From Pedococcus bigeumensis (GTDB taxonomy: Bacteria > Actinomycetota > Actinomycetes > Actinomycetales > Dermatophilaceae), in contig NZ_RCZM01000003.1 of NCBI RefSeq assembly GCF_006438965.1, positions 1 through 64,000 of the forward strand: 64,000 nt of DNA, written 5' to 3'. The position numbers and the translations under genes are program-made. Within the stretch, counting starts at the first letter, position 1, and every line of letters begins with the position of its first letter. Shown here in pieces: positions 42,133-59,761 of this stretch. Below the pieces are notes generated by a model, which saw nothing but the letters and a program-made list of their open reading frames with translations, was not told the origin of the DNA and searched no databases.

Positions 42133-42156
42133 GATGTTGCACGAGTTGGTGCACGG
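42133..42156 (+). repeat. tandem 12-bp repeat, putative integrase arm site 1
   Basis: GATGTTGCACGA (42133-42144) and GTTGGTGCACGG (42145-42156). Three similar tandem pairs occur at 42489, 59398 and 59614, all near the att repeats and nowhere else that I noticed. Tandem 12-mers close to an att core fit tyrosine-recombinase arm sites. Confidence 0.7.
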
Positions 42157-42196
42157 ATGATCGGAAATGGCCGCTGACCTGCGCGTTCGTCTACGT

Positions 42197-42241
42197 CTGA
42201 AAATCGGAAGGTCGGCGGTTCGACCCCGCCCCTGGCCGCCA
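42197..42241 (+). repeat. attachment site: 3' end of tRNA-Phe (copy 1)
   Basis: 45 bases equal to tRNA-Phe positions 32-76: anticodon loop CTGAAAA (GAA anticodon), stem, variable loop, T-arm GGCGG TTCGACC CCGCC, acceptor CCTGGCC, G and CCA. The 5' half of a tRNA is absent (no complementary anticodon stem or GGCCAGG start), so it is an att copy, not a gene. It matches 59678-59722 in 43 of 45 positions. The crossover at the anticodon loop is a common integrase target. Confidence 0.9.
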
Positions 42242-42335
42242 CAATCTTCTTGCAAAACCGCCCCTGACCTGCGGAAACGTGCCCGCGAATGGCACCCGAC
42301 GGCGAGGCCCAATCGGGTCCCCCACACTCCGACCG

Positions 42336-42375
42336 AGAATCGGAAGGTCGGCCATTCGACCCAGCCTGGCCACCA
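42336..42375 (+). repeat. degenerate tRNA-Phe 3' end (copy 2)
   Basis: AGAATCGGAAGGTCGG then CATTCGACCCAGCCTGGCCACCA resembles copy 1 but has lost two bases in the T-stem and carries substitutions. It lies 95 bp after copy 1, as if a small remnant of another element lies between them. Confidence 0.8.
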
Positions 42376-42380
42376 CCCCG

Positions 42381-42415
42381 AAGCCGCGGGTCGCAGCCCT
42401 GTGACCTGCGGCTTT
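42381..42415 (+). terminator. hairpin after the degenerate att copy
   Basis: AAGCCGC (42381-42387) pairs with GCGGCTT (42408-42414), followed by TTGAT. It has the same stem theme as the hairpin after the att copy at 59.7 kb, so it is probably a copied tRNA-Phe terminator. Confidence 0.6.
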
Positions 42416-42486
42416 GATCTCAACTCGGCACCTTCGGACGGAGGCTCAAATGACGTAAATGGTCGCCAGAGACCCCGATTGGCCAA

Positions 42487-42519
42487 GAGATGTGGCACGA
42501 GATGTTGCACGACATCTCG
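42487..42519 (+). repeat. tandem 12-bp repeat, putative integrase arm site 2
   Basis: GATGTGGCACGA (42489-42500) then GATGTTGCACGA (42501-42512), one mismatch apart. The block is also framed by GAGATGT (42487-42493) and ACATCTC (42513-42519), a 7-bp inverted repeat. Confidence 0.7.
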
Positions 42520-42702
42520 AAGTCAAGAGAACGTCTGAGCGAGAGAGCCCACACGGCCGGGAAGTTCGTGTCATCCAATGCGATCGGCAGCCTGTCCGAC
42601 CCGAGTGGCCTTCTGAGCGCTCGCGGGCGGGCGGTCTGAGACCACGCCGCATGACATGGATCCGGGACGAGTCGCGCGCCGGGTGGCTCCGGAACAGGCG
42701 GA

Positions 42703-43686
42703 CTAGGCAGACGGGTCCGTCGCCAGCTCGCGTTTGCTCATCAGCGCGACCAAGTCGTAGATCACGGTGGCCGCTGCCAGAGTGGTGATCTCGGCATGGT
42801 CGTATGCGGGTGCGACCTCCACGACGTCGGCGCCAACTACGTTTAGGCCGTCGAGGTTGCGCAGCAGCGACAACAGCTCACGACTTTGCAGACCGCCTGC
42901 CTCGGGTGTGCCGGTGCCTGGCGCGAAGGCAGGGTCCAGAACGTCGATGTCGATGGACAGGTAGACAGGCGTGTCACCGACTCGCTGCCGCACCTGCTCG
43001 ACGGCGCCCTCGATGCCGATCCGGTCGAGGTCGCTGGCACGGATCGCCTTGAAGCCGAAGTCGGCGTCCTCCTTCAGATCGATCCGGTCATAGAGGGGAC
43101 CTCGGACGCCCAAGTGAATGGAGTGATCCTCAGCGAGGAGGCCTTCCTCGAAGGCACGGCGCAGCACCGTGCCGTGGGTGACCGGGGCGTTGAAGTAGGT
43201 GTCCCACGTGTCGAGGTGGGCGTCGAAGTGGATCATCGCCACTGGCCCGTGCTGGCGCACCACTGACCTCAACATCGGCAGGGATATCGTGTGATCCCCA
43301 CCGATCGCGATCACGCGCCGGTCGCCGCTACCCCCTTGCACTGCGTCGGCGTGGGCCTCGGTCTGCGCGATCGCCTCATTGATGCTGAACGGCGTGCACG
43401 CAACGTCCCCAGCATCGACGACCTGGACACGCTCGAACGGAGCCACGCCGAGCTCGACGTGAAACGCGGGTCGCAGGTGGCGCGAGGACTTGCGGACCTC
43501 CATCGGCCCGAAACGCGCACCCGGACGGAATGACGTACCACCGTCGAAAGGGACGCCCAGGATCGCGATGTCGTAGTCGCTCACCGTGTGGATCTCGGGG
43601 ATGCGGGCAAAGCTCGAGGAGCCCGCGTAGCGCGGGACCTCAGTACCGCTGACCGGGCCGATGGGTAGAGGCACCCGCGCGCTCAC
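42703..43686 (-). CDS. ureohydrolase of the agmatinase/guanidino-acid hydrolase family
   Basis: 327 residues from a GTG at 43686. The di-manganese ureohydrolase motifs are all present: IGGDHTISLP, IHFDAHLDTWD, and LSIDIDVLDPAFAPGTGTPE near residue 240. N-terminal ILGVPFDGGTSFRPGARFGP fits agmatinase-type enzymes rather than arginase. The enzyme releases urea from a guanidino compound. In a creatine/sarcosine island a guanidino acid such as guanidinoacetate (giving glycine plus urea) is a likely substrate, but agmatine, guanidinobutyrate or guanidine cannot be excluded. Last gene of the leftward operon. Confidence 0.88.
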   Translation of the reverse strand: MSARVPLPIGPVSGTEVPRYAGSSSFARIPEIHTVSDYDIAILGVPFDGGTSFRPGARFGPMEVRKSSRHLRPAFHVELGVAPFERVQVVDAGDVACTPFSINEAIAQTEAHADAVQGGSGDRRVIAIGGDHTISLPMLRSVVRQHGPVAMIHFDAHLDTWDTYFNAPVTHGTVLRRAFEEGLLAEDHSIHLGVRGPLYDRIDLKEDADFGFKAIRASDLDRIGIEGAVEQVRQRVGDTPVYLSIDIDVLDPAFAPGTGTPEAGGLQSRELLSLLRNLDGLNVVGADVVEVAPAYDHAEITTLAAATVIYDLVALMSKRELATDPSA

Positions 43687-43747
43687 GACTGGGCCTTCAC
43701 GGCGTCGACGATAGTGGTTGCAGTGAACATTCAGTGCTCTTCTCGAG

Positions 43748-44596
43748 TCAGCGGAAGACGACGGTACGGTCGTTGTTGAGCAGGATCCGATGCTGGCCGT
43801 GCCAGGTCACGGCGCGAGCCAGAGCGAGGCTCTCAGCGTCGCGACCCGCCGTGACCAGGGCTTCGGGACCGTAGGTGTGGTCGACCCGGATGACCTCCTG
43901 CTCGATGATCGGTCCCTCGTCGAGGTCCGGGGTGACGTAGTGCGACGTCGCGCCCACCTGCTTGACGCCACGGTTGTACGCCTGGTGATAGGGCTTGGCG
44001 CCCTTGAAGCTGGGCAGGAAGGAGTGGTGGATGTTGATCGCACGCCCCTCGAGCTGCCTGCAGAGGTCGTTGGACAGCACCTGCATGTAGCGCGCCAGCA
44101 CCACCAGGTCGATCTCGTGGCGGTCGATCAGGGCGAGCAGCCGCGCCTCGGCCTCCTCCTTGGTGTCCGGGGTGACCGGCACGTGCATGAAGGGAACGCC
44201 AGCCGACCCCGCCATCGTCCCGAGGTCCGGGTGGTTCGAGACGACGAGTGCGATGTCCACCCCCAGGCTGCCGACCTGCCAGCGGTAGAGCAGGTCGTTG
44301 AGGCAGTGGCCAAACTTCGAGGCCATCACCAGGACGCGCGTGCGTCGTGTGGCGTCGTGGAGCTGCCACTTCATCTCGTATGCCGTGGCCACCGTCGCGA
44401 AAGCGGCCTCCAGCTGCTCACGGGCACCGGCCGGAGCCTCGAAACAGGTGCGCAGGAAGAGCAGCCCGTGCACCGAGTCGTCGAACTGCTGATGCTCAGT
44501 GATGTCACAGCCGCCGTTCACCAGGACCGAGGTCACGGCGTGGACGATGCCGGCTCGGTCGGGACAGCTCAGGGTGAGGACGTACCGGTTGCTCAT
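43748..44596 (-). CDS. purU: formyltetrahydrofolate deformylase
   Basis: 282 residues. N-terminal ACT domain ([33 protein letters not shown]) and a C-terminal formyl-transferase fold with [39 protein letters not shown] and [20 protein letters not shown] (catalytic Asn/His, with the Asp in a later loop, [11 protein letters not shown]). PurU hydrolyses 10-formyl-THF to formate and THF. Here it would vent the one-carbon units released by sarcosine oxidase when glycine-to-serine conversion does not use them all. 13 bp after sdaA. Confidence 0.95.
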
Positions 44597-44609
44597 GGTG
44601 GTCTTCCGC

Positions 44610-45983
44610 TCAGCACTCGACGACGTTGAGGGCGAGGCCGCCGCGTGCGGTCTCCTTGTACTTGTCCTTCATGTCCGCGCCGGTCTCGCGCATCGTCTTG
44701 ATTGCCTTGTCGAGCGACACGTGGTGGCGCCCGTCGCCACGAATCGCCAGTCGCGCTGCGGTGATTGCCTTGACCGAGGCCACCGCGTTGCGTTCGATAC
44801 AAGGGATCTGGACGAGCCCACCAACAGGGTCACAGGTCAGACCGAGGTTGTGCTCGATGCCGATCTCGGCCGCATTCTCGACCTGCTCTGGCGTGCCGCC
44901 GAGCACCTCGGCGAGGCCGGCCGATGCCATCGAGCATGCTGAGCCGACCTCGCCCTGGCACCCGACCTCGGCGCCGGAGATGGATGCGTTCTCCTTGAAG
45001 AGCACACCGATCGCAGCGGCGGTGAGGAGGAACCGCACCACGCCGTCGTCGCTGAACGAGGGGATGAACCGCTGGTAGTAGTGCAGCACCGCCGGGATGA
45101 TGCCAGCAGCACCATTCGTCGGGGCCGTGACCACCCGGCCGCCAGATGCGTTCTCCTCGTTGACAGCCAGCGCATAGAGGGTGACCCAGTCCATCGGCGC
45201 GAGGTGGTCGCGTTCGGCGTCGCCGTTGGCCAGGCTCCGTCGCAGGTGCGCAGCGCGCCGACGGACCTTGAGTCCCCCGGGTAGCACGCCATCGGTGCGG
45301 CAGCCGCGCTCGACGCACTCCTGCATCACCGCCCAGATGCGCAGCAGCCCAGACCTGATGTCCTCCTCGGTGCGCCAGGTGAGCTCGTTGGCGAGCATGA
45401 CCTGGCTGATCGGCAGCCCCGTCTCGCGACAGTGCGCCAGCAGCTCCGCACCCGTGGTGAACGGGTAGCGGACCGGACTGCTATCCGGCACGATGCGCTG
45501 CTCCCCTGCCTCGCCCTGGTCGAGGACGAAGCCACCACCGACGGAGTAGTACTCGCGGACGCTGACGACTGCGCCGTCCGCACCCGTCGCCGCGAAGCGC
45601 ATCCCGTTGGTGTGGAAGGGAAGCCGTTTGCGGCGATGCAGAACGACGTCCTCGTCGACGTCGAAGCCGATGGTATGCCGCGTGAGGAGTCCCAGCCGAC
45701 CGGACTCCCGGACCGCCTGGACCGACGGCTCCGCCGCCGCGGGATCGACCTCCTCAGGCGTCTCCCCCAACAACCCGAGCACCACCGCCTTGACGCTGCC
45801 GTGACCGTGACCGGTGGCGCCGAGCGACCCGAACAGCTCGACCCGAACCCCCTGGACCGCCTCGAGGAGACCGTCCTTCTCGAGCGAGGCCGCGAACGAC
45901 CTCGCCGCGCGCATCGGCCCCACCGTGTGCGAGCTGGAGGGCCCGATGCCCACGGAGAAGAGGTCGAAGACGCTTAGTGCCAT
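44610..45983 (-). CDS. sdaA: L-serine ammonia-lyase (iron-sulfur type)
   Basis: 457 residues from ATG at 45983. Alpha and beta domains are fused: [20 protein letters not shown] and [16 protein letters not shown] in the beta part, [40 protein letters not shown] and [20 protein letters not shown] in the alpha part, which carry the cysteines of the [4Fe-4S] cluster. It converts serine to pyruvate and ammonia and completes the creatine-to-pyruvate route. Overlaps the soxG 3' end by 10 bases. Confidence 0.95.
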
Positions 45984-46579
45984 GACGGATCCTGGTGGTA
46001 CTCCGTGCAGGCGTCGACGATCCAGTCGGCGAGGTAGCGGGCGAAGGATGACCGGACCAGGATCCAGAACTCTGTCGCGGTGTCGTCGCGCACGACGAGC
46101 ACGACCCCGGCGAGGGCGAGCATCGTCTGGATGCACGTCCCCTGGATGGCGACCCGTGGGTGCAGGTCGGTGGAGCAGCCGTGGGCGAGCAGGTCGCGTG
46201 CCTTGGGTCCGCTCAGCGAGATCGTCGTGCGCTGTGCGGAGACGTCGACGACGGCGCCGTGACCCGCCACTGCGGCGTCGAGGGAGTCGAGCAGGTCGGT
46301 GCGCTCGGCGGGTGCGACGACCAGCCACTCGTCGGGCCCCAGCCACAGGACCGACACGTCACCGGCGGTCACCGCGGTACAGGCGTCCTGCGGCACTGCA
46401 ACACCCAAGACCTCCGCGACGGCCGCCGCCGCCGGACCCGTGGGGTCCAGACGCAGGTCGAGCTGCACGAGCAGGGGCAGCTCACGGACGAGGACCCCGG
46501 CGGGCAGTGCCTCCAGCTGGGTCGTTGCCGAAGCCAACGGGCTACGGCGCTCGGACCGGGAAATCGTCTCAACCGTCAC
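45974..46579 (-). CDS. soxG: sarcosine oxidase gamma subunit
   Basis: 201 residues starting GTG, overlapping soxA by 11 bases. [51 protein letters not shown], and [20 protein letters not shown] are the SoxG pattern, related to the GcvT fold. The subunit is a structural part of the heterotetrameric sarcosine oxidase. Gene order B-D-A-G is the usual one. Confidence 0.92.
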
Positions 46580-49430
46580 GACGGCTGCCCTCCTTGTCGA
46601 ACAGGACGCTGTCGGTGACCGTCACCGGCACCAGCTCGTCCTCGATGGGTACGTACAGGGTTTGGCCGATCCGCTCGCGCCCCGACCGGACGACGGCCAG
46701 GGCGAAGGTCCGGCCGAGAGCCGCGCTGCGGTAGCTCGACGTGACGTGGCCGAGCATCGGCACCGGTGGCGGTGGCAGCTCGGAGCACTCGACGACCTGT
46801 CCACCCTCGGGCAGCAGCACTGTCGGGTCGACGGGCACCAGGCCGACGAGCTGCTTGCGGTCCGCCCGGTGGTTCTCGGGTCGGTTGAAGGACCGCTTGC
46901 CGATGAAGTCGAGCTTCTTCTTGGAGATGATCCAGTCCATGCCGAGGTCCTGCGGGGTGACCGTCGCATCGGTCTCCTGGCCGATGATCGGGTAGCCCTT
47001 CTCTGCTCGCAGGACGTGCATGGTCTCGGTGCCATAGGCGGTGATGCCGTAGGGCTCACCTGCCGCCCACAGCGCCTCCCAGACGGCCTGGCCGTCCCAG
47101 GCGCTGACGTTGACCTCATAGGCCAGCTCGCCGGAGAAGCTGATTCGGGCGACCCGAGCCGGGATGCCGGCGACGGTGGCATCCCGCCAGGACATGAACG
47201 GGAACGCCTCCTTGGACACGTCCAGGTCGGGCGCCACCGCCGCGAGGACGTCCCGTGAGCGCGGTCCGACGAGCGGGATGGTGGCCCACTGTTCGGTCAC
47301 CGAGGTCAGGTGCACCCTGAGCTCGGGCCACTCGGTTTGGACCCACTCCTCCATCCAGTCGAGGATCTTGGCCGCGTTCCCGGTGGTGGTGGTGAGCAGG
47401 AAGTGCTCGTCGGACACCCGGATGACGGTGCCGTCGTCGATGACCATGCCGTCGACGCCGCACATCACGCCGTAGCGTGCTGAGCCGATCTTCAGGCTGC
47501 TCATCAGGTTGGTGTAGAGCCGGTCGAGCAGCTCACCGGCGTCGGCGCCGCGGACGTCGATCTTGCCCAGCGTCGACCCGTCCATCATCCCGACGGAGTC
47601 TCGGACGGCTGCGCACTCGCGCAGCACCGCCTGTTCGATGTCCTCGGCGTCCTGCGGGTAGTACCAGGGTCGCTTCCACTGGCCGACGTCCTCGAACTCG
47701 GCGCCGTGCAGGACGTGCCAGTCGTGGATCGCGGTGACTCTGACGGGATCGTGGAGCGTGCCGCGGTCGCGACCCGCCAGGGCCGCGAACCCAACAGGCG
47801 TGTAGGGCGGCCGGAAGGTCGTCGTCCCCAACTCGGCGACGTCGGCGCCCAGCGCCTCGGCGATGATCCCGGACGCGATGACGCCGGAGGTCTTGCCCTG
47901 GTCGTGCGCGGTGCCGATCGTCGTGTAGCGCTTCACGTGCTCCACCGACCGCAGCCCGGCACCGGTGGCGCGCAAGATGTCGGAAACCGTGGCGTCGCGT
48001 TGGAGGTCGACGAACCGGGTGCAGGGAGCACCCGGATCGGCTTCGGGTACCGACCACAGGACCATGGTCGGGCAGCCGACTGGCGCGGCGGGTGTCCCCG
48101 GAAGGGACTCGGGCGAGGTGGCGGGCAGACCCAGGTCGGCGAGGGCCTGGACTGACACGGCCGCACCGCCGCTCAGGGCGCCACGCAGGGTGAACTCACC
48201 CGTTGCCGCCCCAGCCACGCTTGCAGCCGGGATGGCCGCACCGGGCACGAAGGCGCCGAGGCCGGCGTCGTAGCGCAGCTTGCCGCGCGCCTGGCTGAAC
48301 AGGTGCACTGCGGGGTTCCATCCACCGCACACCAGGAGCAGGTCGCAGGCTATGCCGTCGCGGGTGCCCAGCGCGCCACCGACATATGGGGCCACGTGGG
48401 CCCGGCTGACGTGGCTGGTGCCACTGGTGCCGGTCACGACGTGACCCTTGCGGACCTCGATGCCGCGGTCGGCGCAGGCGGCCGTCCAGTGGGCTGGGAC
48501 CTCCTGGCGTGCATCGATGACCGCCCGCACGGTGGCGCCTGCGTCCGCGAGGTCGATGGCCGCGGCATACGCGCTGTCGTCGGTGGTGAAGACCACGACC
48601 TCGCGCCCGGCGACGACTCCGAAGCGGTGCAGGTAGGTCCGAGCGGACCCGGCAAGCATGATGCCCGGCTTGTCGTTGCCAGGGAACACGAGCGGTCGTT
48701 CGTGTGCGCCGGTCGCGACGATGACGTGACGTGAGCGGATGCGCCAGATGCGTTGGCGCGACAGGTGTGCCGGTGCATCCAGTCCCAGGTGGTCGGTGCG
48801 CTTCTCGAGGGCGAGCACGAAGCCGTCGTCGTAGTAGCCGAAGGCCGTCGTGCGCTGCAGGACGGTGACATCGGGAAGGCTGCCCAGCTCGGCCACGGCC
48901 TCGGCGACCCACTGCAGGGCTGGGGCACCATCGATCTCGTCACTGATGCCCAGCAGGGAGCCGCCCGCTTCGGGCTGTTCGTCGACGAGGACGACCCGGG
49001 CACCGGAGCGGGCCGCGGTCAGGGCCGCCGCGAGCCCTGCCGGTCCGGCACCGACGATCAAGAGGTCGCAGTGCGTGTGGACCGCGTCGTAGCGGGACGG
49101 GTCGGGACGGTCGGCGAGCTTGCCCTGGCCAGGCAGCCCGCGGGCCACCAGCCCGTCGGAGAGCTCCACCGTGGTGGCGGTCAGCATCGGCTCTGGGAAG
49201 GGCGTCTCCACCTGGACCAGGGCGTTGGGGTCCTCGGCGCCGGCTGACATGATGCCGCGTGGCCGACCGAGCTTGATGCTGGTCGTGACCTGGTGGACTC
49301 CGTTGGCGAGGAGGGCCGAGGCGAGGGTGTCGCCGCGCAGACCCTCGTAGACCTCACCGTTGAAGGTGAAGGACATGGTGGCGTTGTGGTCGACCCGGCC
49401 TCCCTTGGGGAGACGGAACGTGGCGCTCAT
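46569..49430 (-). CDS. soxA: sarcosine oxidase alpha subunit
   Basis: 953 residues from ATG at 49430 (ATGA with soxD). N-terminal Fer2_4-like domain (MSFTFNGEVYEGLRGDTLAS, RPRGIMSAGAEDPNALVQV), a dinucleotide-binding domain (CDLLIVGAGPAGLAAALTAA), and after residue ~560 a GcvT-like aminomethyltransferase domain (MDGSTLGKIDVRGADAGELL, AEKGYPIIGQETDATVTPQD, KKLDFIGKRSF). The complex demethylates sarcosine to glycine and, with THF, produces 5,10-methylene-THF plus H2O2. Length matches the family (~960-1000). Confidence 0.95.
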   Translation of the reverse strand: MSATFRLPKGGRVDHNATMSFTFNGEVYEGLRGDTLASALLANGVHQVTTSIKLGRPRGIMSAGAEDPNALVQVETPFPEPMLTATTVELSDGLVARGLPGQGKLADRPDPSRYDAVHTHCDLLIVGAGPAGLAAALTAARSGARVVLVDEQPEAGGSLLGISDEIDGAPALQWVAEAVAELGSLPDVTVLQRTTAFGYYDDGFVLALEKRTDHLGLDAPAHLSRQRIWRIRSRHVIVATGAHERPLVFPGNDKPGIMLAGSARTYLHRFGVVAGREVVVFTTDDSAYAAAIDLADAGATVRAVIDARQEVPAHWTAACADRGIEVRKGHVVTGTSGTSHVSRAHVAPYVGGALGTRDGIACDLLLVCGGWNPAVHLFSQARGKLRYDAGLGAFVPGAAIPAASVAGAATGEFTLRGALSGGAAVSVQALADLGLPATSPESLPGTPAAPVGCPTMVLWSVPEADPGAPCTRFVDLQRDATVSDILRATGAGLRSVEHVKRYTTIGTAHDQGKTSGVIASGIIAEALGADVAELGTTTFRPPYTPVGFAALAGRDRGTLHDPVRVTAIHDWHVLHGAEFEDVGQWKRPWYYPQDAEDIEQAVLRECAAVRDSVGMMDGSTLGKIDVRGADAGELLDRLYTNLMSSLKIGSARYGVMCGVDGMVIDDGTVIRVSDEHFLLTTTTGNAAKILDWMEEWVQTEWPELRVHLTSVTEQWATIPLVGPRSRDVLAAVAPDLDVSKEAFPFMSWRDATVAGIPARVARISFSGELAYEVNVSAWDGQAVWEALWAAGEPYGITAYGTETMHVLRAEKGYPIIGQETDATVTPQDLGMDWIISKKKLDFIGKRSFNRPENHRADRKQLVGLVPVDPTVLLPEGGQVVECSELPPPPVPMLGHVTSSYRSAALGRTFALAVVRSGRERIGQTLYVPIEDELVPVTVTDSVLFDKEGSRRDG

Positions 49431-49705
49431 GAGATCACCGGCTTGGGCTGGTCGAGACGGTAGACGGCGAGCATCTGGTGCGTGGCGGTGTCGCGGACGG
49501 CGTTGAACCACCTGCGGCAACCGGACGAGTGCAGCCAGCGCTCGGCGAAGGGACCCTTGGGGTTGTCCCGGAAGAAGAGGAAGGCCGCCCACTCGACGTC
49601 GGACAGCGCCGCCGTGTCGGCGGGGTAGGCGACGTGCGCCTGGCCGCCGTAGTGGTATTCGGCTTCTTCGCGTGGCCCGCAGTAGGGGCATTCGATGAGC
49701 TGCAT
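49427..49705 (-). CDS. soxD: sarcosine oxidase delta subunit
   Basis: 92 residues from ATG at 49705, with GGAG about 6 bases upstream. IECPYCGPREEAEYHYGGQAH and the HSSGCRRWFNAVRD motif give the Cys3His zinc site of SoxD. VEWAAFLFFRDNPKGPFAER is a conserved core. Lies 17 bp after soxB and overlaps soxA. Confidence 0.95.
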   Translation of the reverse strand: MQLIECPYCGPREEAEYHYGGQAHVAYPADTAALSDVEWAAFLFFRDNPKGPFAERWLHSSGCRRWFNAVRDTATHQMLAVYRLDQPKPVIS

Positions 49706-50961: not shown

Positions 50962-52265
50962 GACTGGTGCCCCTCGTGGGTCGGGTAGAGCGGGAAGCGG
51001 TCGGTGAGGGCGCGGACGCGGGCGCGGAGGCCCTCGGCCACCGCGTCGTCGAAGCCGGGCAGGAGGGCCGAGGCGATGATGTCCGCGACCTCGCGGAACT
51101 CCTCGTCGCCGAATCCGCGGGTGGCCAGGGCCGGGGTGCCGATGCGGATGCCGGAGCTCACCATGGGTGGGCGGGGGTCGAACGGCACCGCGTTGCGGTT
51201 GACGGTGATGCCGACCTGGTCGAGCCGGTCCTCACCCTGCTGGCCGTCGAGGTCGGAGTCACGCAGGTCGACCAGGACGAGGTGGACGTCGGTGCCACCG
51301 GTGAGGACGGTGATCCCGGCCGCGGCCACGTCCGCGGAGAGCAGCCGGTCGGCGAGGATGCGGGCGCCTGCGAGGGTGCGGCGCTGTCGTTCGGCGAAGT
51401 CCTCCCCTGCGGCCACCTTGAACGCGACCGCCTTGGCGGCGATGACGTGCTCGAGCGGGCCGCCCTGCTGGCCCGGGAAGACGGCGCTGTTGATCTTCTT
51501 GGCCAGCTCGGCCGTCGAGAGGATCACCCCGCCCCTGGGTCCGCCCAGGGTCTTGTGGGTCGTCGTGGTGACCACGTGGGCGTGCGGGACCGGGTTGGGG
51601 TGCAACCCGGCCGCCACCAGCCCGGCGAAGTGGGCCATGTCGACCATGAGGTAGGCGCCCACCTCGTCAGCGATCGCCCTGAAGGCCGCGAAGTCGAGCT
51701 GACGCGGGTAGGCGGACCAGCCCGCGATGATGAGCTTGGGACGGTGCTCGTGGGCGAGCCTGCGGACCTGCTCCATGTCCACGCGGTGGTCCGACTGCGC
51801 CACCTGGTAGGCCGCGACGCGGTAGAGCTTGCCCGAGAAGTTGATCCGCATGCCGTGGGTGAGGTGACCGCCGTGCGCGAGGTCCAGACCAAGGATCGTG
51901 TCACCGGGCTCGATCAGCGCCACCATCGCCGCGGCGTTGGCCTGCGCGCCGGAGTGCGGTTGGACGTTGGCTGCCTCAGCGCCGAACAGGGCCTTGACCC
52001 GGTCAATGGCGAGCTGCTCGACCACGTCGACGTGCTCGCAACCGCCGTAGTAGCGGCGACCGGGATAGCCCTCGGCGTACTTGTTGGTCAGGACCGAGCC
52101 CTGGGCTTCCATGACCGCGAGGGGGGCGAAGTTCTCGCTGGCGATCATCTCGAGTGTTCCGCGCTGGCGGGCCAGCTCGGCGTCGAGCGCCACGGCGATC
52201 TCGGGGTCGAGGATGGCCAAGGGCGTATCGAGTACCGAGTCAGTACGCGGCAGCAGGTCAGTCAT
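50958..52265 (-). CDS. glyA: serine hydroxymethyltransferase
   Basis: 435 residues from ATG at 52265. Motifs: [48 protein letters not shown] and the PLP-lysine [19 protein letters not shown]. The start gives the normal family length. In this operon it joins glycine with methylene-THF to make serine, so both products of sarcosine oxidase are used. First gene of the leftward operon glyA-soxBDAG-sdaA-purU-ureohydrolase. It is probably a second, pathway-specific copy. Confidence 0.95.
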
Positions 52266-52303
52266 GGTCACGGTCCTTAAGCTCAGTCGTGTGATGTGTA
52301 GAG

Positions 52304-52420
52304 AATGCAACAGTGTTGCGTTCAAGTCAACACCTGCATGCCGACGAATCTCGGTATGGTGGTCTTGACAGCATGTCGTAGGCGCGCCTACCGTCCCATT
52401 AAACGCATACCTGTTGCAGA
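52304..52420. promoter_or_regulatory. divergent promoter region of the glyA-sox operon and creatinase
   Basis: The 179-bp gap has AATGCAACAGTGTTGCGTT (52304-52322), arms GCAAC and GTTGC around AGT; a perfect 14-bp palindrome GTAGGCGCGCCTAC (52378-52391); and CTGTTGCAG (52411-52419), another GTTGC half-site. TTGACA (52365-52370) is a possible rightward -35. The GTTGC repeats on both flanks suit one regulator for both operons, IclR (53834) or PucR (57266). Confidence 0.6.
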
Positions 52421-52444
52421 TAACTCAACGAAAGGCATTTGCAC

Positions 52445-53665
52445 ATGAACCTCGAAAGGCTCAAGGACATCCCCAACGGCGAGAAAGTCCAGCCGACCTT
52501 CTCGGCGGCAGAGTTCGAGCGTCGGCTGACCAACCTGCGCAAGCACATGGCCGACGACGGCCTCGATGCGGTGCTCCTCACGAGCTACCACAACATCAAC
52601 TACTACTCGGACTTCCTCTACACCTCGTTTGGGCGCAGCTACTTCCTGGTCGTGACCCAGAACGACTCCACCACCGTGTCCGCGAACATTGACGCCGGTA
52701 TGCCGTGGCGTCGCAGCCAGGGCTCCAACATCGTCTACACGGACTGGCGCAGGGACAACTACCTGTATGCCGTCCAGCAGGTCCTTGAGCGCCAAGGTTT
52801 GCGCGGTGGTCGGCTCGGGGTCGAGGACGACCACATCAGCACCGATCTACGCGCTAAGGTCTCCGACGCACTGCCGGCGTGGACGCTCACCGACGTCGCC
52901 GCGGCAACGATGCGACACCGCATGGTCAAGTCGCCCGAGGAGATCGAGCTCATCAAGCACGGAGCGCGCATCGGAGACCTGGGTGGCGAAGCCATCCGTG
53001 AGGCCATCGCCGAGGGTGTCCCCGAGTTCGAGGTGGCCATCGCCGGCTCGAACGCGATGATCCGCGAGATCGCCAGGACCTTCCCCCATGCCGAGCTGCG
53101 GGACACCTGGGTGTGGTTCCAGTCCGGCATCAACACCGACGGCGCGCACAACTGGGCCACGAGTCGCAGGGTGCAGCGGGGCGACATCCTGTCGCTCAAC
53201 TGCTTCCCCATGATCGCCGGCTACTACACCGCACTTGAGCGCACCCTCTTCTGGGGCGAACCGTCCCCCGAGCACCTGCGGCTGTGGGAGGTCAACGTCA
53301 AGGTGCACCGTCGCGGCCTCGAACTGATCAAGCCCGGCGCCGTGTGCAAGGACATCGCCGCAGAGCTCAACGAGATCTTCGACGCCGAGGGCCTGCTCGC
53401 CAACCGCACGTTCGGCTACGGCCACTCGTTCGGCGTGCTCTCGCACTACTACGGGCGCGAGGCGGGACTCGAGCTGCGCGAGGACATTGACACAGTTCTC
53501 GAGCCGGGCATGGTCGTGTCGATGGAGCCGATGATCATGGTGCCCGAGGGCCAGCCAGGCGCCGGCGGCTACCGCGAGCACGACATCCTCGTCGTCGGCG
53601 ACGACGGGGCGGAGAACATCACCCGCTTCCCCTTCGGACCGGAGCACAACATCCTCGGAGTCTGA
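52445..53665 (+). CDS. creatinase (creatine amidinohydrolase)
   Basis: 406 residues from ATG at 52445 with GAAAGG about 9 bases upstream. This is a peptidase M24-fold ('pita-bread') protein whose details are those of creatinase, not aminopeptidase P: TSYHNINYYSDFLYTSFGRS, GMPWRRSQGSN, YTDWRRDNYLYAVQQ, FQSGINTDGAHN with His at residue 235 (the catalytic His), ALERTLFWGEP, GHSFGVLSHYYGREAGLELR and MEPMIMVPEGQPGAGGYREH. Length matches Pseudomonas creatinase (~403). It hydrolyses creatine to sarcosine and urea in the cytoplasm, without metal, feeding the divergent sox operon. Confidence 0.95.
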   Translation: MNLERLKDIPNGEKVQPTFSAAEFERRLTNLRKHMADDGLDAVLLTSYHNINYYSDFLYTSFGRSYFLVVTQNDSTTVSANIDAGMPWRRSQGSNIVYTDWRRDNYLYAVQQVLERQGLRGGRLGVEDDHISTDLRAKVSDALPAWTLTDVAAATMRHRMVKSPEEIELIKHGARIGDLGGEAIREAIAEGVPEFEVAIAGSNAMIREIARTFPHAELRDTWVWFQSGINTDGAHNWATSRRVQRGDILSLNCFPMIAGYYTALERTLFWGEPSPEHLRLWEVNVKVHRRGLELIKPGAVCKDIAAELNEIFDAEGLLANRTFGYGHSFGVLSHYYGREAGLELREDIDTVLEPGMVVSMEPMIMVPEGQPGAGGYREHDILVVGDDGAENITRFPFGPEHNILGV

Positions 53666-53711
53666 AGCCCCTACGCGTCCCTGGTCCCTCACCCGGGCGC
53701 GCCGGAACCAT

Positions 53712-53750
53712 GCCGACGCCGGCCGTGCCACCTCATGTGGCAAGGTCGGC
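53712..53750 (+). terminator. hairpin between creatinase and the iclR gene
   Basis: Inner stem TGCCAC (53726-53731)/GTGGCA (53737-53742) with loop CTCAT, outer stem GCCGAC (53712-53717)/GTCGGC (53745-53750). There is no T-tract, so it may be a weak terminator of the creatinase transcript or, by its inner repeat, an IclR operator. Confidence 0.5.
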
Positions 53751-53833
53751 GTTGGCGGTTCCGGGCATGCCGCCGCGTCCAGCAGGGCGCGGGCCAGGTC
53801 CCCGAACACCCGACCACGCCGAAAGGAACAACC

Positions 53834-54628
53834 GTGGCCAAACACGACACAGAGCCCGAGGGCGAGTCGCGCGCCTCGGCGTCCGTGCTGCTCAACGGGT
53901 TACACGTCCTTGAGGCCTTCTCCATCGACGAGCCGGTGCTCGGGGTGACCGAGATCGCCCGCAAGGTCGACCAGCACAAGAGCACCGTCTCGCGGATCCT
54001 CGCGACACTGGAGCGGGCAGGCTACGTCGAGCGCGACGAGCGCAGCGGTCGCTTCCGGCTCGGACTCGGGCTCATCGCCCTGGCCGGGCCCCTGCTGGCC
54101 GACCTCGACGTGCGCCGAGTGGCCCTGGGGTCACTGCAGCAGCTGACCGACCGCACCGGCGAAACCTCCGCCCTGATGGTCTGGAACGGCCATGAATCGG
54201 TCGTCGTGGAGCAGGTCCAGAGCCCCAAGCAGGTCAAGCACACCGCTGCGATCGGCACCCGCTACGACACGTACGAGAGCTCCTCGGTCAAGGTCTTCCT
54301 GGCTGCCCTTCCGCCCAGTGAGGTAACGCGCCTGTTCGAACGACGACTGCTGGTCGGGACCTACGAAGAGCATGCGCTCGAGAGCTACGTCGCCGAGCTC
54401 GAACGCGTCACGGAGCTGGGCTTCGCCGTCAACGACGGCCGCACCTCGGTCGAGGAGGTCGGCGTTGCCGCCCCCGTCCGCGACCACCGCGGCGTCGTCG
54501 TCGCCGCCGTGCTGCTCTCGGCTCCTCGGTTCCGCGTGCCGCCGGCCATGCTGGACGTGCTCGCCCGAAGCGTCGCCGACACCGCCCTGGAGGTGTCGGC
54601 CCGACTGGGAGACACGTCGACGGCCTAG
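53834..54628 (+). CDS. IclR-family transcriptional regulator
   Basis: 264 residues from a GTG at 53834 after AAAGGAACAACC. Winged helix near the N-terminus (VLEAFSIDEPVLGVTEIARK, VDQHKSTVSRILATLERAGY) followed by the IclR effector domain (TGETSALMVWNGHESVVVEQ, GTRYDTYESSSVKVFLAALP, FAVNDGRTSVEEVGVAAPVR). The frame extends upstream into a non-conserved stretch. It lies next to the creatinase gene and is a good candidate regulator of creatine or sarcosine genes; effector unknown. Confidence 0.92.
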   Translation: MAKHDTEPEGESRASASVLLNGLHVLEAFSIDEPVLGVTEIARKVDQHKSTVSRILATLERAGYVERDERSGRFRLGLGLIALAGPLLADLDVRRVALGSLQQLTDRTGETSALMVWNGHESVVVEQVQSPKQVKHTAAIGTRYDTYESSSVKVFLAALPPSEVTRLFERRLLVGTYEEHALESYVAELERVTELGFAVNDGRTSVEEVGVAAPVRDHRGVVVAAVLLSAPRFRVPPAMLDVLARSVADTALEVSARLGDTSTA

Positions 54629-54694
54629 GAACACCAGACGACGCACCCGCCCACGGAGTCCGAGGGCGGGTGCAGTCAGTTCCGGGCGCAGAAG

Positions 54695-55657
54695 TCAGCC
54701 AAGGGTGGCAGTCTCACGCGCCCGGCTGGCGCCACCGACGGGAGTCCCGTCCTGCAGGATGGGTGCGTCCGGGAAGGTCGGCACCTCATAGCGGGTGTGC
54801 GTGCGCACCACCTTCGTCACGTTCGCAGCGTGCTCGGCAATCTCCTCCAAGGTGGTCACCCACATCCCGTCAAGGGCCTTGACACCCTCGATGAGCTGCT
54901 CGAGCGCGTGCGCCCGCGAAGGCCGCCCTGAGATGAACGGGTGGTTCGTCAGGACCCAACAGCCGCCCTGCGCGTGCTGGGCGTCGGCCTCCAGCTGCCA
55001 CATCTCGCGCGCCTTGCTCGGGCTCTCGATGACTCCGCTGCCGGTCCAACCGGGATAGAACGCGTACTGCTCCCAGTCGTCCAGCGCCCAGTCGACCGGA
55101 ATCTCGATGAGCGACTCCGCCGACCCCGGCTCGACAGCGAACCGGTAGGGGGCATCCCCGTCCAGCAGGCTCGAGTCGTACCGGAAGCCACGCTCGACCA
55201 GCAGCCCTGGCGTCTGGTAGTTCATCTCCCACCACGGCGCTCGATACCCCACCGGCACGACCCCTGCCACCCGGTGCAAGGCCTCCAGCCCACGATCGAG
55301 GTAACGCGCCTCCGTCTCACGGTCGATCCCCTGCATCTGCTCGTGCAGATAGCCGTGGTGACCGATCTCGTGGCCGCCGTCGACGATGGCTTGCACGACG
55401 TCGGGATGGCACTCAGCCGTGAAGCCTGGGACGAAGAAGGTCGCCCGAATGTCCTGTCGCGCAAGGATGCTCAGGATCTTCGGCACCGCGACCAAGGGAC
55501 CGTAGGATTGGTGCGACATCAGCGACATCCGCTTCGCCGCGCCAGGGTCGTGCGCTAGCACGCACGACTCCGCGTCGACGTCGAAGGTGAACGACGCAGC
55601 AGCCCGTATGCCGTCCGGCCAGCTGAAGACTGGGTCGTCACCTCCCAGCAAGGTCAC
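54695..55657 (-). CDS. polysaccharide-deacetylase-fold hydrolase (PuuE allantoinase-like)
   Basis: 320 residues from a GTG overlapping the permease stop (GTGA). NodB/CE4 fold motifs: AAASFTFDVDAESCVLAHDP with the catalytic/metal Asp pair, GHEIGHHGYLHEQMQ with the metal HxxxxH, YRAPWWEMNYQTPG and TNHPFISGRPSRAHALEQL. The length, lack of signal peptide and the GYLHE/YRAPWW pattern fit the cytoplasmic PuuE group, some of which open hydantoin-type rings (allantoin). Beside an NCS1 permease and an Fcy1-like deaminase it may hydrolyse a cyclic ureide or amide, such as N-methylhydantoin. Substrate is inference. Confidence 0.85.
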   Translation of the reverse strand: MTLLGGDDPVFSWPDGIRAAASFTFDVDAESCVLAHDPGAAKRMSLMSHQSYGPLVAVPKILSILARQDIRATFFVPGFTAECHPDVVQAIVDGGHEIGHHGYLHEQMQGIDRETEARYLDRGLEALHRVAGVVPVGYRAPWWEMNYQTPGLLVERGFRYDSSLLDGDAPYRFAVEPGSAESLIEIPVDWALDDWEQYAFYPGWTGSGVIESPSKAREMWQLEADAQHAQGGCWVLTNHPFISGRPSRAHALEQLIEGVKALDGMWVTTLEEIAEHAANVTKVVRTHTRYEVPTFPDAPILQDGTPVGGASRARETATLG

Positions 55658-57174
55658 TGCTCGACTCGCAGTGCGTTGGCGCCCACGACGGAGTCCGTGG
55701 ATGCCGCGGAACTGAGCGGCACGGCGCGAGTATCCGACGTCTGGCCGGTGCCTGCGGCATACCGACGGTGCACCTTTCCACCGATCAGTGCATAGGTGCC
55801 CGCCGCGGACAGGCCACCGGCCAGCCACGAGAGGTCGAGCCCGCCCATGGCGCGGGCGGCGAAGCCCTGGAGAGCCGGGGTGAGGCCGTAGAGGAACAGC
55901 CAGGTGAAGAACACGCCGACAGCGAAGGAGGCCATGGTCGCCCAGTTGACGTCGGGGAGCTTCTTCGACCCGACCGGCTCGAAGAGCACATCTGCGTCGA
56001 TGTGACCCTTCGCGAACTTGTAGTAGTGGACGAGCATGATGCCGCCCCAGGCCGCGATCCACGCGACGATGCCGATCAGCCAGGTGTCGAGGACGCTGCC
56101 CAGGTCGCCCGCGTAGATGAAGAAGATCACCGCCGCCATGGAGAACACACCAACGACGAGGCTGAGCGTGCGACGGTTGATCTTGATGTCGAGCGCCTGG
56201 GCGGCCACCGAGAAGGTGTAGATGTTGAGGATGTTGGTCGCGATCGGACCATGGACGACCAACAAGAGCACGGGGATGGCGAGCGCGCCGAAGTTGTCGA
56301 CGACGAGCGCACCAGGGTCGACGGTGCCGTTCTTGGTGGCCAAGGTGGCTCCGAGGACACCGAGCCACACGACGGGGATGAACTGGCCCAACACGCTGGC
56401 GGAGTAGAGCTTGCGTCGCGACATCGTGCGGCTCACGAATCGCGAGTAGTCCGCGGCATACGTGAACCACGTGATCCCCCAACCGATTCCGATCGCGGTC
56501 ATGACACCCGACATCACGACCCAGCGGTCGGCACCGGTGAGGATGTGACCGGCCTGGCCTGCGTAGCCCCAGTCGATGTCGAGGAAGAACCAGGCCGCGA
56601 TCGACATGGCGACGAGCACGACGATAGTGGGGGGCACGGTCCAGCGTTCGAAGGCGGCGATGGTGCGGTAGCCCGCCCACGAGATCGCGACCTGGATGCC
56701 CATGATGAGCGCGGCCACCCCGATCTTCCACGGGTAGTTGCTCGCATCCGGGTCGACGACACCGATCTTGCCCAGCAGGGCCATGACGAGGTCGAGGATG
56801 ATCCAGGTATTCACCGCGCACCAGCCCACGGCGAGCGCGGCCTGGATGGTGGCGGGGAGGTAGGCGCCACGGCGCCCGAAGGCGGCGCGAGAGAGCACCA
56901 TCCCGGTCACACCGGTGCGCTGACCCATCAGGACGAACAGGCCGAAGAGCGCCATGCCGATGAGGTTGCCGACGACGAGGACGATGAGGGTGTCGCGCAG
57001 GCCGAGGCCCAGGGCCACCCCGAGCGCGCCGAGCACCCAGTTGATCGGGGCGATGTTGGCACCACACCAGATCCAGAACTGGCCGGACACGCTGTGGGTT
57101 CGGGCTTCTTCGGGGATCGGCTGGAGAACCTGCTCGACCTCGTAGATGATGTGGGACTGGTCCGCAGAGCTCAT
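55654..57174 (-). CDS. NCS1-family permease (cytosine/purine/hydantoin type)
   Basis: 506 residues, about 12 helices. ATG at 57174 has GGAGG 5 bases upstream; another ATG at 57186 is in frame. GQFWIWCGANIAPINWVLGA, LVVGNLIGMALFGLFVLMGQ, TGVTGMVLSRAAFGRRGAYL, WGITWFTYAADYSRFV and INRRTLS are typical of NCS1 carriers, which import nucleobases, allantoin or hydantoins with H+ or Na+. In this island a creatinine or N-methylhydantoin-like cargo is plausible. Divergent from the pucR gene and co-transcribed with the PuuE-like hydrolase. Confidence 0.93.
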   Translation of the reverse strand: MSSADQSHIIYEVEQVLQPIPEEARTHSVSGQFWIWCGANIAPINWVLGALGVALGLGLRDTLIVLVVGNLIGMALFGLFVLMGQRTGVTGMVLSRAAFGRRGAYLPATIQAALAVGWCAVNTWIILDLVMALLGKIGVVDPDASNYPWKIGVAALIMGIQVAISWAGYRTIAAFERWTVPPTIVVLVAMSIAAWFFLDIDWGYAGQAGHILTGADRWVVMSGVMTAIGIGWGITWFTYAADYSRFVSRTMSRRKLYSASVLGQFIPVVWLGVLGATLATKNGTVDPGALVVDNFGALAIPVLLLVVHGPIATNILNIYTFSVAAQALDIKINRRTLSLVVGVFSMAAVIFFIYAGDLGSVLDTWLIGIVAWIAAWGGIMLVHYYKFAKGHIDADVLFEPVGSKKLPDVNWATMASFAVGVFFTWLFLYGLTPALQGFAARAMGGLDLSWLAGGLSAAGTYALIGGKVHRRYAAGTGQTSDTRAVPLSSAASTDSVVGANALRVEQ

Positions 57175-57241
57175 CTGCGCCTCCATTCATGGCGGGGTGT
57201 TACCGCACAGAGTGACCTTCCGCGCAGCCCTACGACAAGAT

Positions 57242-57282
57242 ACATTTCGACAGTCAACAGCCCCAATGATTGGACGAAATGT
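57242..57282. promoter_or_regulatory. spaced inverted repeat in the permease/pucR divergent promoter
   Basis: ACATTTCG (57242-57249) and CGAAATGT (57275-57282) are exact reverse complements 25 bp apart (centre to centre three helical turns). AT-rich half-sites in GC-rich DNA, overlapping the pucR start region, suggest a PucR-type regulatory site. Confidence 0.7.
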
Positions 57283-58801
57283 CATGCCGATGCCACTGCG
57301 GGAGGTGCTCAAGGATCCAACCGTGCTGGCTGCCGAGCCCCTGGTGCTCGCAGGCAGAACCCGGCTGGGACGCCTGGTTACCTGGGTACACACGAGCGAG
57401 GTGCTCGACATCGCCACACTGCTGCGCGGTGGCGAGCTGCTGCTCGTGGGCGGCGTCAGCCTCGCGACCGCATCACGGGAACAACGGGTCGCCTACATCC
57501 AGGAGCTGGCGGCGCGGGAGGTCGCGGGCATCGCCATCGAGACGGGTGGGCGCCTGCCCACTGTGCCCGAGGAGATGGTTCAGGAAGCCGAACGGCTGCA
57601 CCTACCCCTGCTCGAGCTGCGCAAGGTCGTGCGGTTCGTCGAGGTGACACAGTCGATCAATGGCCTGCTCGTGAACGAGTCGGTCCGCCGCCTGCAGCTC
57701 GCGGACCGGGTTTCGCACGCCCTGGCCGCCGGCCTCGCCGGTGGTGCCGAGGTCAGCCAGCTGATGGACATCCTCGCCGCGGAGGTCCAGGCCGACGCAA
57801 CACTGACCGCGCCGAACGGCGACGTCATCGCCGAGGCAAGCGCCGACCTCGAAGGGCCCTCTCCCCGGAGCAAGGAGCACCCGATCGTGGCGCCCGTGAG
57901 CAGCGCAGGCGTGACCGTCGCCCTGCTCACCCTCAATCCACGCCCCGGAGCGGACCTGCTGCTGCTCGACGCCGCACGGGATCGCGCGCCTGAAGCGCTC
58001 GGCCTCGCCCTACTGCGGTCTCGGCCACTGTCCCGGGTCGAGCGGGACGCGCACGAACTGCTGGGACTGGCAGTGTCCGGTGGACGATCGCCGCGACGAT
58101 TTGTCGAACTCGCGACCCGACTGGGCATCAACGCCCACGACGCCTGGGTCTGCACGGTCGCCAGAATCGGACCTGGCCAGGGTCTGACGGCCGGGATCGA
58201 GGCCGCCGTCAGCCGCAGTGGCCGCACCGCGATCAGCCAGATCGACCACGACTCCTACCTGTCGGTCATCGCGCTGCGGCTGGATGGCACGACCCTGGGT
58301 GCCGCCCGGGCCAGCATCATCGCGGACTTACGAGACGTGCCGATGCCCCCGCAGGTGAAGGTAGCTGTCGGGCCGGCCACCCGGGCGCTGGCCGGCATCG
58401 GACACTCCTTGGCCGAGGCGGAGTCAGCTCTGGACCTGGCCGAGGACTCTGGCGAGGTGGTTGTCGACGCGGTCGCCCTCGGCGTCCCGCGGTTGCTCGG
58501 GGCGCTGGGACGCCCCGACCTAGTCGGCGCTTTCATCGAGGAGCAGCTGGGCGACCTCCTCGAGCTCGACCGTCGCCGCAGCGGTCAGCTCTTCGAGACC
58601 TTCGCGATGTACCTGCGGCAGTCAGGTCACAAGACCGACACCGCCGCCGCCCTGCACCTGCAGCGACAGAGCCTCTACCAGCGGCTGGACCGCATCATGA
58701 CCGCCTTAGGGAATCCCGAGCCAGGCACGAGCCGATGGGGCGCCCTGACCCTGGCGACCGAGCTGGAAGCGGCCCGACGGCGCACCGGGGAGCGACAGTG
58801 A
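57266..58801 (+). CDS. PucR-family transcriptional regulator
   Basis: 511 residues from ATG at 57266; ATG 57284 and 57290 are alternatives within the operator. N-terminal PucR domain (PLREVLKDPTVLAAEPLVLA, LGRLVTWVHTSEVLDIATLL, RGGELLLVGG, AGIAIETGGRLP) and C-terminal PucR helix-turn-helix (ETFAMYLRQSGHKTDTAAAL, HLQRQSLYQRLDRIMTALG). The family controls purine, allantoin and hydantoin catabolism. Divergent from the NCS1 permease-hydrolase operon and upstream of the deaminase gene, it likely controls both. Confidence 0.93.
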   Translation: MIGRNVMPMPLREVLKDPTVLAAEPLVLAGRTRLGRLVTWVHTSEVLDIATLLRGGELLLVGGVSLATASREQRVAYIQELAAREVAGIAIETGGRLPTVPEEMVQEAERLHLPLLELRKVVRFVEVTQSINGLLVNESVRRLQLADRVSHALAAGLAGGAEVSQLMDILAAEVQADATLTAPNGDVIAEASADLEGPSPRSKEHPIVAPVSSAGVTVALLTLNPRPGADLLLLDAARDRAPEALGLALLRSRPLSRVERDAHELLGLAVSGGRSPRRFVELATRLGINAHDAWVCTVARIGPGQGLTAGIEAAVSRSGRTAISQIDHDSYLSVIALRLDGTTLGAARASIIADLRDVPMPPQVKVAVGPATRALAGIGHSLAEAESALDLAEDSGEVVVDAVALGVPRLLGALGRPDLVGAFIEEQLGDLLELDRRRSGQLFETFAMYLRQSGHKTDTAAALHLQRQSLYQRLDRIMTALGNPEPGTSRWGALTLATELEAARRRTGERQ

Positions 58802-58862
58802 GGGATGGGACACTGCACCGACGACCGCAGCAGCCACGAACCGTGGAACGGCAGGAGGCGCG

Positions 58863-59348
58863 ATGACGGCGAACGTCGAGGATGACCAGCGTTGGCTGGC
58901 CCTGGCCGTGGAGCAGGCACGGATCGGGTGGTCCGAGGGCGGCATCCCGATTGGGGCGGCCCTCGTGCACAACGGGCAGCTGATCGCGGTCGGACGCAAC
59001 CGACGGGTCCAGCAGGGCAGCGTCATTCGCCACGGAGAGACCGACTGCCTCGAGAACGCCGGCCGACTGACGGCGCGGACCTATCGCTCCAGCGTGCTCT
59101 ACACCACGCTGTCACCATGCTTCATGTGCGCGGGAACTGTTCTGCTGTACCAAATTCCGCGCATCGTCGTCGGTGAGAACCGCACCTTCGAGAGCTCGGA
59201 GGACCTGCTTCGGTCGCGTGGCGTTCGGGTAGACGTCTTCGACGACCTGGAGTGTCGTTCCCTCATGGACCGGATGATCGTGGAGAAGCCTGAACTTTGG
59301 AGGGAAGACATCGGCCTCGAGCCCTCAGCGCAGAGCCGGACCGTCTGA
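58863..59348 (+). CDS. Fcy1-like cytosine/creatinine deaminase
   Basis: 161 residues, ATG at 58863 with AGGAGGCG 3-9 bases upstream. Zinc deaminase motifs: HGETDCLENAGR (zinc His and catalytic Glu) and SPCFMCAGTVLLYQIPRIVV (two zinc Cys). IRHGE..CLENAGR, VGENRTFESSEDLL and ERPELW-like EKPELWREDIGL closely follow yeast cytosine deaminase rather than guanine or tRNA deaminases. Bacterial creatinine deaminase activity is known to overlap with cytosine deaminase. With creatinase and sarcosine oxidase in the same island, creatinine is the attractive substrate; cytosine remains possible. Confidence 0.88.
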   Translation: MTANVEDDQRWLALAVEQARIGWSEGGIPIGAALVHNGQLIAVGRNRRVQQGSVIRHGETDCLENAGRLTARTYRSSVLYTTLSPCFMCAGTVLLYQIPRIVVGENRTFESSEDLLRSRGVRVDVFDDLECRSLMDRMIVEKPELWREDIGLEPSAQSRTV

Positions 59349-59397
59349 CGCGTTTGCACCGATCTGGCACCGTCGAAGGTCATGGCCTCGGACACAA

Positions 59398-59421
59398 GAG
59401 GTTGCACGAGATATCGCACGG
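59398..59421 (+). repeat. tandem 12-bp repeat, putative integrase arm site 3
   Basis: GAGGTTGCACGA (59398-59409) then GATATCGCACGG (59410-59421); same tandem pair as at 42133, 42489 and 59614. Confidence 0.65.
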
Positions 59422-59435
59422 CCGGTATAGCAACC

Positions 59436-59474
59436 CTGACGCGCGCAAATGCGTAGGTCCGAGATTGGAAGGGC
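59436..59474 (+). repeat. decayed island-end/att remnant
   Basis: CTGACGCGCGCAAATGCGTA... (59436-59459) matches 20 of 24 bases of the sequence just before the right att (59655-59678), and GAGATTGGAAGGG then resembles the start of the tRNA part. Arm-like repeats precede both. It looks like an older, eroded copy of the right end. Confidence 0.5.
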
Positions 59475-59613
59475 AACAGCACCTCCGATACAGCACAGAG
59501 GTACAGCAACCGGTCCGACGGAGCTTGGCGCTCTGCGCAGGCTGATGGCGGGTCCCAAGCACGATCACGGCTCCCGAGGCCGATGCCTAGAGTTCGGGAC
59601 GAAGGGGCGGCGA

Positions 59614-59637
59614 GATGTTGCACGAGATGTAGCACGG
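59614..59637 (+). repeat. tandem 12-bp repeat, putative integrase arm site 4
   Basis: GATGTTGCACGA (59614-59625) and GATGTAGCACGG (59626-59637), two to three mismatches apart; first copy identical to 42133-42144 and 42501-42512. Confidence 0.7.
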
Positions 59638-59677
59638 CGTCCGAAAAGGGCCCTCTGACCTGCGCAATTGCGTACGT

Positions 59678-59722
59678 CTGAAGATCGGAAGGTCGGCGGT
59701 TCGACCCCGCCCCTGGCCACCA
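59678..59722 (+). repeat. attachment site: 3' end of tRNA-Phe (copy 3, right end)
   Basis: Same 45-base tRNA-Phe segment as 42197-42241 with two differences (CTGAAGA in the anticodon loop; A as discriminator base). The preceding 24 bases are also shared with the left copy (CTGACCTGCGC ... TACGT), showing that both boundaries derive from the same kind of element. No 5' tRNA half precedes it. Confidence 0.9.
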
Positions 59723-59725
59723 CGA

Positions 59726-59761
59726 AAGCCGCAGGTCCGCGCCGTGCGCGGCCTGCGGTTT
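59726..59761 (+). terminator. terminator of the tRNA-Phe locus
   Basis: AAGCCGCAGG (59726-59735) pairs with CCTGCGGTTT (59752-59761) around a GC-rich loop. It lies 4 bases after the tRNA CCA end, the usual place for a tRNA terminator, and marks the right side of the island as original chromosome. Confidence 0.75.

Follow-up and report, generated by a model that had tools for sequence, protein, structure and literature searches.

Probable tandem integrase-less islands at a tRNA-Phe gene of Pedococcus bigeumensis, with attachment sites of the pMR2 type

Gene content of the locus

The window, that is, the whole 64,000-nucleotide stretch of DNA analysed, forms the left end of contig C7 (C7:1-64000) in the 13-contig, 4.22-Mb genome of Pedococcus bigeumensis. 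It opens with the 3' part of an IS110-type transposase gene (1..420, plus strand; PF02371, E 1.5e-17). Copies of this gene occur elsewhere in the genome, on C4, C11 and C7, at 91-100% identity, and the repeated transposase is a likely cause of the assembly break. The right part of a region termed island A follows (421..42132). Pfam searches with selected ORFs of this island identified two-component systems, cation efflux proteins, a multicopper oxidase, a heavy-metal-type P-type ATPase, rhodanese-domain proteins and TauE.

Gene assignments place the cargo of a second block, island B, at 42513..59396. Its minus strand encodes agmatinase (42703-43686), PurU (43748-44596), SdaA (44610-46346), sarcosine oxidase alpha (46569-49889) and beta (49723-50961), and GlyA (50958-52325). 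These are followed on the plus strand by creatinase (52439-53665; PDB 1chm, E 1.1e-176) and an IclR-type regulator (53735-54628). Further to the right are a polysaccharide-deacetylase family protein, encoded by the C-terminal part of ORF 54695-57190 (minus strand), a cytosine/purine-type permease (55654-57186, minus strand), a PucR-type regulator (57146-58801, plus strand) and a deaminase-family protein (58863-59348, plus strand). The creatinase frame replaces two overlapping minus-strand ORFs that matched no family (52388-52834 and 52847-53845), and the permease frame replaces the N-terminal part of ORF 54695-57190. No transfer family was found among the island B ORFs scanned. The gene set suggests that island B serves creatine-sarcosine-glycine-serine catabolism, with a predicted route from creatine to pyruvate.

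All 58 genomes compared match some part of island B, mostly as single genes. The longest outside matches, 7.7 kb on G009:C11 (74% identity) and 5.4 kb on G035:C2 (73%), lie away from the att sites found in those genomes. Base composition was of little use as an island marker, with GC values of 0.697 for island A, 0.679 for island B, 0.696 for the C10 flank and 0.696-0.711 for the right backbone.

Repeats and attachment-site anatomy

Island B is flanked by a pair of 72-nt repeats (42171-42242 and 59652-59723) that are 89% identical and spaced 17,481 bp apart. Comparison with the tRNA-Phe gene called by ARAGORN at C10:347552-347628 showed that their shared core begins at CTGAARA, the anticodon loop, exactly where a first-pass annotation of this DNA had placed the start of the repeats. 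At up to three mismatches, the 23-nt core occurs three times in the window, against a shuffle mean of 0.00 (n=100). The same annotation held that both boundaries also share the preceding 24-bp motif and tandem 12-mers; a conserved spacer and tandem 12-mers do lie before each core, except that the second 12-mer on the left is the diverged GTTGGTGCACGG. A two-arm pattern allowing up to three mismatches gave six rows in the whole genome, four in the window and two overlapping ones just 3' of the tRNA-Phe gene; the pattern was composed from the window sites themselves, so that their detection is by construction. Its backwards control gave no forward match and one reverse match. The 12-mer on its own is weak evidence, with 10 matches at up to two mismatches against 4.77 expected and 2 of 100 shuffles equalling that count.

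From left to right, the array is read as tRNA-Phe with attL arms, island A, attR1, a decayed attL2, island B, a decayed attR2a, attR2b with a terminator copy, and the chromosome. All sites in the window lie on the plus strand. The arm pattern locates the attR1 arm pair, whose second arm is the diverged one, at 42133..42156, and the core pattern and repeat comparison place the attR1 core, running from the anticodon loop to the tRNA-Phe 3' end, at 42197..42242. Just 5' of these arms, an apparent truncated start of an FAD/NAD oxidoreductase gene was noted by eye (41900-42065). The attL2 site consists of a decayed core and, after it, a tRNA-Phe terminator copy (42328..42422), both identified by similarity to tRNA-Phe regions, and an arm pair that fits the arm pattern (42489..42512). 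Positions 42328-42416 align with the genome's own tRNA-Phe region at 83.5% identity over 91 nt, and attL2 through to its arms shows 73% identity with the tRNA-Phe region of G035 and 76% with that of G017. The middle junction has two cores 136 bp apart, as against the single hybrid core of simple accretion.

At the right end, attR2a (59397..59472; 76% identical to attR2b) comprises an arm pair at 59398-59421 and a damaged core, and G009:C6 matches window positions 59397-59611 at 73%. Pattern matches place the attR2b arms at 59614..59637 and its core at 59678..59723. A terminator copy resembling the one 3' of tRNA-Phe follows at 59724..59772 and likely represents, on the similarity observed, the original chromosome side of the site. 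Positions 59670-59745 are 89.6% identical to the own tRNA-Phe region, and 59670-59772 are 85% identical to that of G017. The loop reads CTGAAAA in the tRNA and in attR1, CTGAAGA in attR2b and CCGAGAA in attL2. The decayed attL (42328-42512), the decayed attR (59397-59472) and the terminator copy past the right core had been missed by the first-pass annotation, so that the array has more parts than it described.

Duplication of a tRNA gene or homologous recombination could in principle have spread such repeats with no integrase event, and attL2 does retain TCCGA before the loop, like the tRNA. However, no tRNA 5' half above chance lies upstream of any of the four copies (347 to 4320 of 5000 shuffles scored as high), and the same arms at the same distances follow the int genes of relatives. 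We consider this origin highly improbable.

The intact tRNA-Phe gene and empty sites

ARAGORN called no tRNA in the window. The core pattern, at up to three mismatches, has four matches in the genome, and at these places ARAGORN called an intact tRNA-Phe gene solely at C10:347552-347628, which is 3,440 bp from the right end of contig C10. A terminator and three arm-like 12-mers lie 3' of the gene, the distal arms being at C10:347742-347777. The left part of island A would then be C10:347629-351068 plus a gap, since C10 presumably joins C7 across an unassembled gap.

The chromosomal backbone at 63143..64000 (plus strand) was identified by flank matches in three relatives, in which it directly follows tRNA-Phe. 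The match begins 66 bp (G004; 81% identity), 98 bp (G008; 79%) and 253 bp (G003; 78%) past the ARAGORN-called gene. Both flanks were aligned for G003, whose empty site has a left flank, up to the tRNA, 76-82% identical to C10 and a right flank 78-84% identical to C7 beyond 63 kb; G004 and G008 show the right flank directly after tRNA-Phe. In G004, tRNA-Asp and tRNA-Glu genes also lie near tRNA-Phe, as on C10. Because the G003 empty site joins both flanks, the tRNA-Phe gene lies on the left side, as had been predicted from the repeat geometry. The intact gene and the empty-site comparison also support the earlier proposal of tandem islands at one tRNA, given the presumed C10-C7 join.

Ten genomes of the same genus were tallied, every full-length core match being taken as tRNA-Phe. 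Three sites are empty, four carry an insert before the backbone of about 4.5 kb (G007), 4.9 kb (G006), 20 kb (G010) and 41 kb (G001), and G002, G005 and G009 fall in neither class. In P. bigeumensis, at least 66.5 kb separate tRNA-Phe from the backbone, of which C10 contributes 3.4 kb and C7 63.1 kb, the gap coming on top. Between the last attR and the backbone lies a 3.4-kb segment with an Ig-like domain protein (59773-63142), which is missing from the three empty sites.

Cognate integrases in relatives

Two relatives, G035 and G017, encode tyrosine integrases (76% identical to each other) whose genes end just 5' of an attR of the same make-up. A protein scan of genome contigs with both integrases returned four loci, one (L113) being that of G017, which together with G035 makes five distinct loci. 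The pMR2-type integrase homologues are 75-76% identical to the G017 enzyme. In all five loci the core starts 70-85 bp from the start of the int stop codon; two of these (G017 and G035) had been chosen via their att sites and the other three via protein search alone. At up to two mismatches, both arms were found after int in G017 and G035, one in L116 and none in L114 and L115; the arm pairs of these last three were read by eye, those of L114 and L115 bearing TCGCAC.

The integrase of pMR2 is 57% identical, and the same plan can be read by eye on both sides of its core. Similarly, a Nocardia plasmid record has an integrase at 59.7% and, by eye, a similar plan on the near side of the core. The pMR2-type site plan, comprising an arm pair, a spacer, a tRNA-Phe 3' core and a distal arm group, is present in the window, the arms of pMR2 and of three of the five relatives having been read by eye. 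In G035, tRNA-Phe, attL arms, int and attR all lie on one contig inside 79 kb. Further, a second arm group follows the attR core in G017, as tandem insertion predicts.

Nine proteins encoded near int (in L113, L084, L115 and L116) were scanned. Two, from L113 and L116, match PF12728 and are excisionase-sized helix-turn-helix proteins, two match other families and five match none. No rep or tra family was found among the nine, and these relatives are therefore not established as AICEs. No close phage relative of the integrase was found: all 1457 phage records matched were below 60% identity, the best among the matches listed being 39.1%, and viral contigs held two relatives at 24%.

Absence of a close integrase homologue from the assembled P. 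bigeumensis genome

The genome of P. bigeumensis gave nine PF00589 rows at E <= 0.001, the ninth sharing a frame with L035, and none falls in C7:1-64000; the earlier statement that no recombinase lies between the repeats thus holds. A tblastn search of the window with three integrases revealed no relic beside attR1 or attR2 (best E 0.21). The first-pass annotation had also predicted a helper integrase to the left of the window or elsewhere. A resident helper is not supported: aligned over at least 200 residues, the integrases encoded at the eight own-genome loci tested (L030-L037) share at most about 28% identity with the cognate ones. An integrase may lie in the unassembled gap between C10 and C7.

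RepSA has no match in the window and occurs once in the genome, at C10:270855-272198, near an integrase and a tRNA-Thr gene (C10:270855-273763). This stretch appears to represent another element, likely an AICE with a different target.

Another reading is that an integrase acting from a different locus still excises island B, which would then be an integrase-less mobile passenger. Both attR1 and attR2b have well-preserved cores, and the genome does encode other tyrosine recombinases, but the low identity of the integrases tested and the decay of attL2 make such mobility very unlikely.

Island A and its copies in relatives

G003 carries a 19-kb copy of island A some 650 kb from its own empty tRNA-Phe site. 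Positions C1:3366404-3385634 correspond to window positions 22955-42132 at 95% identity, a match that extends into the attR1 core and stops there. Window positions 17378-18309 come next at 92%, and about 1 kb past them is another R-type site, weaker than the first (77% over 99 nt); the two sites are 21.3 kb apart. In G007 the island A stretch is partly present, at 92% with two gaps, and stops short of the core. The genes at 37.3-41.8 kb also occur at other places, at 79-85% identity, in G001, G002, G006, G007 and G010, which disfavours a single origin of all of island A.

Of four R-type sites in the genus, those of G003, G007 and G009:C3 lack a close cognate integrase in the stretches fetched, and the fourth, on G009:C6, has only about 0.4 kb of contig past its arms, too little to judge. 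The G003 copy is terminated by an att site, and directly on the outer side of that site C1:3364819-3366120 (L087:6820-8121) encodes another tyrosine integrase (PF00589), only 27% identical.

The G003 copy, lying between two sites of which one is weak and with no cognate integrase in the stretches fetched, is the basis for a broader proposal. Integrase-less cargo blocks with pMR2-type att sites might form a genus pool, moved as units by a passing cognate integrase at tRNA-Phe and elsewhere. We regard this as possible but rather unlikely.

Joint entry of A and B, as a composite element already bearing att relics instead of separate insertions in this lineage, would fit the decayed sites just inside both ends of B. 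It would also fit G009:C6, where an attR relic and the next 140-bp stretch (73%) sit beside another tRNA-like 3' end, recognised by eye. Against this, attR1 is well kept, and in G003 the attR1 core closes island A, the 8.3 kb retrieved past it containing no match to B. Joint entry is accordingly the less favoured course and appears unlikely.

Origin of the array

The 17.5-kb block is very probably island B, one unit of tandem site-specific insertions at tRNA-Phe whose integrase is now missing. Insertion would have proceeded through attP sites organised as in the pMR2-type tyrosine integrase family. Such an attP would have as its core the tRNA-Phe 3' half, starting at the anticodon loop, with an arm pair 40 bp 5' of it and, past the tRNA terminator at about 110-130 bp 3' of the core, a second arm group. 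Recombination within this core would leave an intact tRNA-Phe far to the left (attL) and a 3'-half copy at the right end of each element (attR). The int gene, just 5' of the attR arms in relatives, is missing here, and some att sites have decayed. For these reasons, the islands can probably no longer move, barring the arrival of a cognate integrase. What was observed is the att anatomy, a relative's empty site, the pairing of cognate int with att sites in relatives and the lack of int in the window; the C10-C7 join, the order of insertion, the loss of int as opposed to its never having been present, and mobilisation by an incoming element are what we infer.

Several observations speak against tandem insertion, namely the attR2b loop one base off the tRNA, the two-core middle junction, the C10-C7 join, which is not assembled, and the extra 3.4 kb at 59.77-63.14 kb. 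The decay of attL2, and of attR2a, also weakens island B as a self-contained unit, and its separate mobility is doubtful on the state of these sites. As a rule, integrases that target tRNA genes use the loop as crossover segment. If this applies here, the tRNA attL and attR1 match best, and island A should excise more readily than island B. Overall, these islands without an integrase are most likely a CIME-like tandem accretion, now decayed, that was built with pMR2-type sites.

Relation to known elements

Both the CIME concept (PMC5704250) and AICEs in tandem at a single tRNA (PMC3218068) have already been published, and the pattern described here, while real, is of a known kind. As CIMEs are presented in the part of the source available (PMC5704250), they share with island B a site-specific, att-bounded island, tandem placement at one site and an integrase that was not found. 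Island B differs in its decayed attL, putative mobilisation, actinobacterial tRNA-Phe site and metabolic cargo. It lacks integration genes and attR2b is well kept, while the attL2 core is changed. The array would work like a CIME array, and CIME membership is not established, as attL2 is decayed and mobilisation putative.

The attP plan and tRNA-Phe core are the same as in pMR2 of Micromonospora rosaria and the pMR2 integrase subfamily of AICEs, as far as the portion of the paper available describes them (PMC3218068). However, pMR2 is annotated with an integrase, an excisionase, a replication initiator and an FtsK-type protein, none of which was found in island B. An AICE carries its own int, xis, rep and tra genes, and the window has neither a PF00589 nor a RepSA match. 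Tandem insertion in one tRNA gene is likewise seen in Fean5518 and Fean5534, AICEs at tRNA-Lys in Frankia. According to the same portion, these encode two closely related integrases and excise singly and jointly (PMC3218068).

Among the papers listed in literature searches, none concerned this tRNA-Phe array. The array clearly illustrates the stacking of integrase-less islands at a single actinobacterial tRNA gene, and the cognate integrase family was deduced from its att sites. Arms, spacer and core together could reveal further decayed islands missed by integrase-gene searches, here with creatine and metal cargo.

Two other att-like sequences were observed in the P. bigeumensis genome. At C8:539710-539773 (L004, L027) there is a tRNA-Phe core and terminator copy whose arms are not recognisable; it lies about 0.3 kb from an apparent tRNA or tmRNA 3' end seen by eye, where ARAGORN calls none. 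The other, at C8:117558-117658 (L005, L026), is an R-type att relic about 310 bp from tRNA-Met and far from tRNA-Phe.
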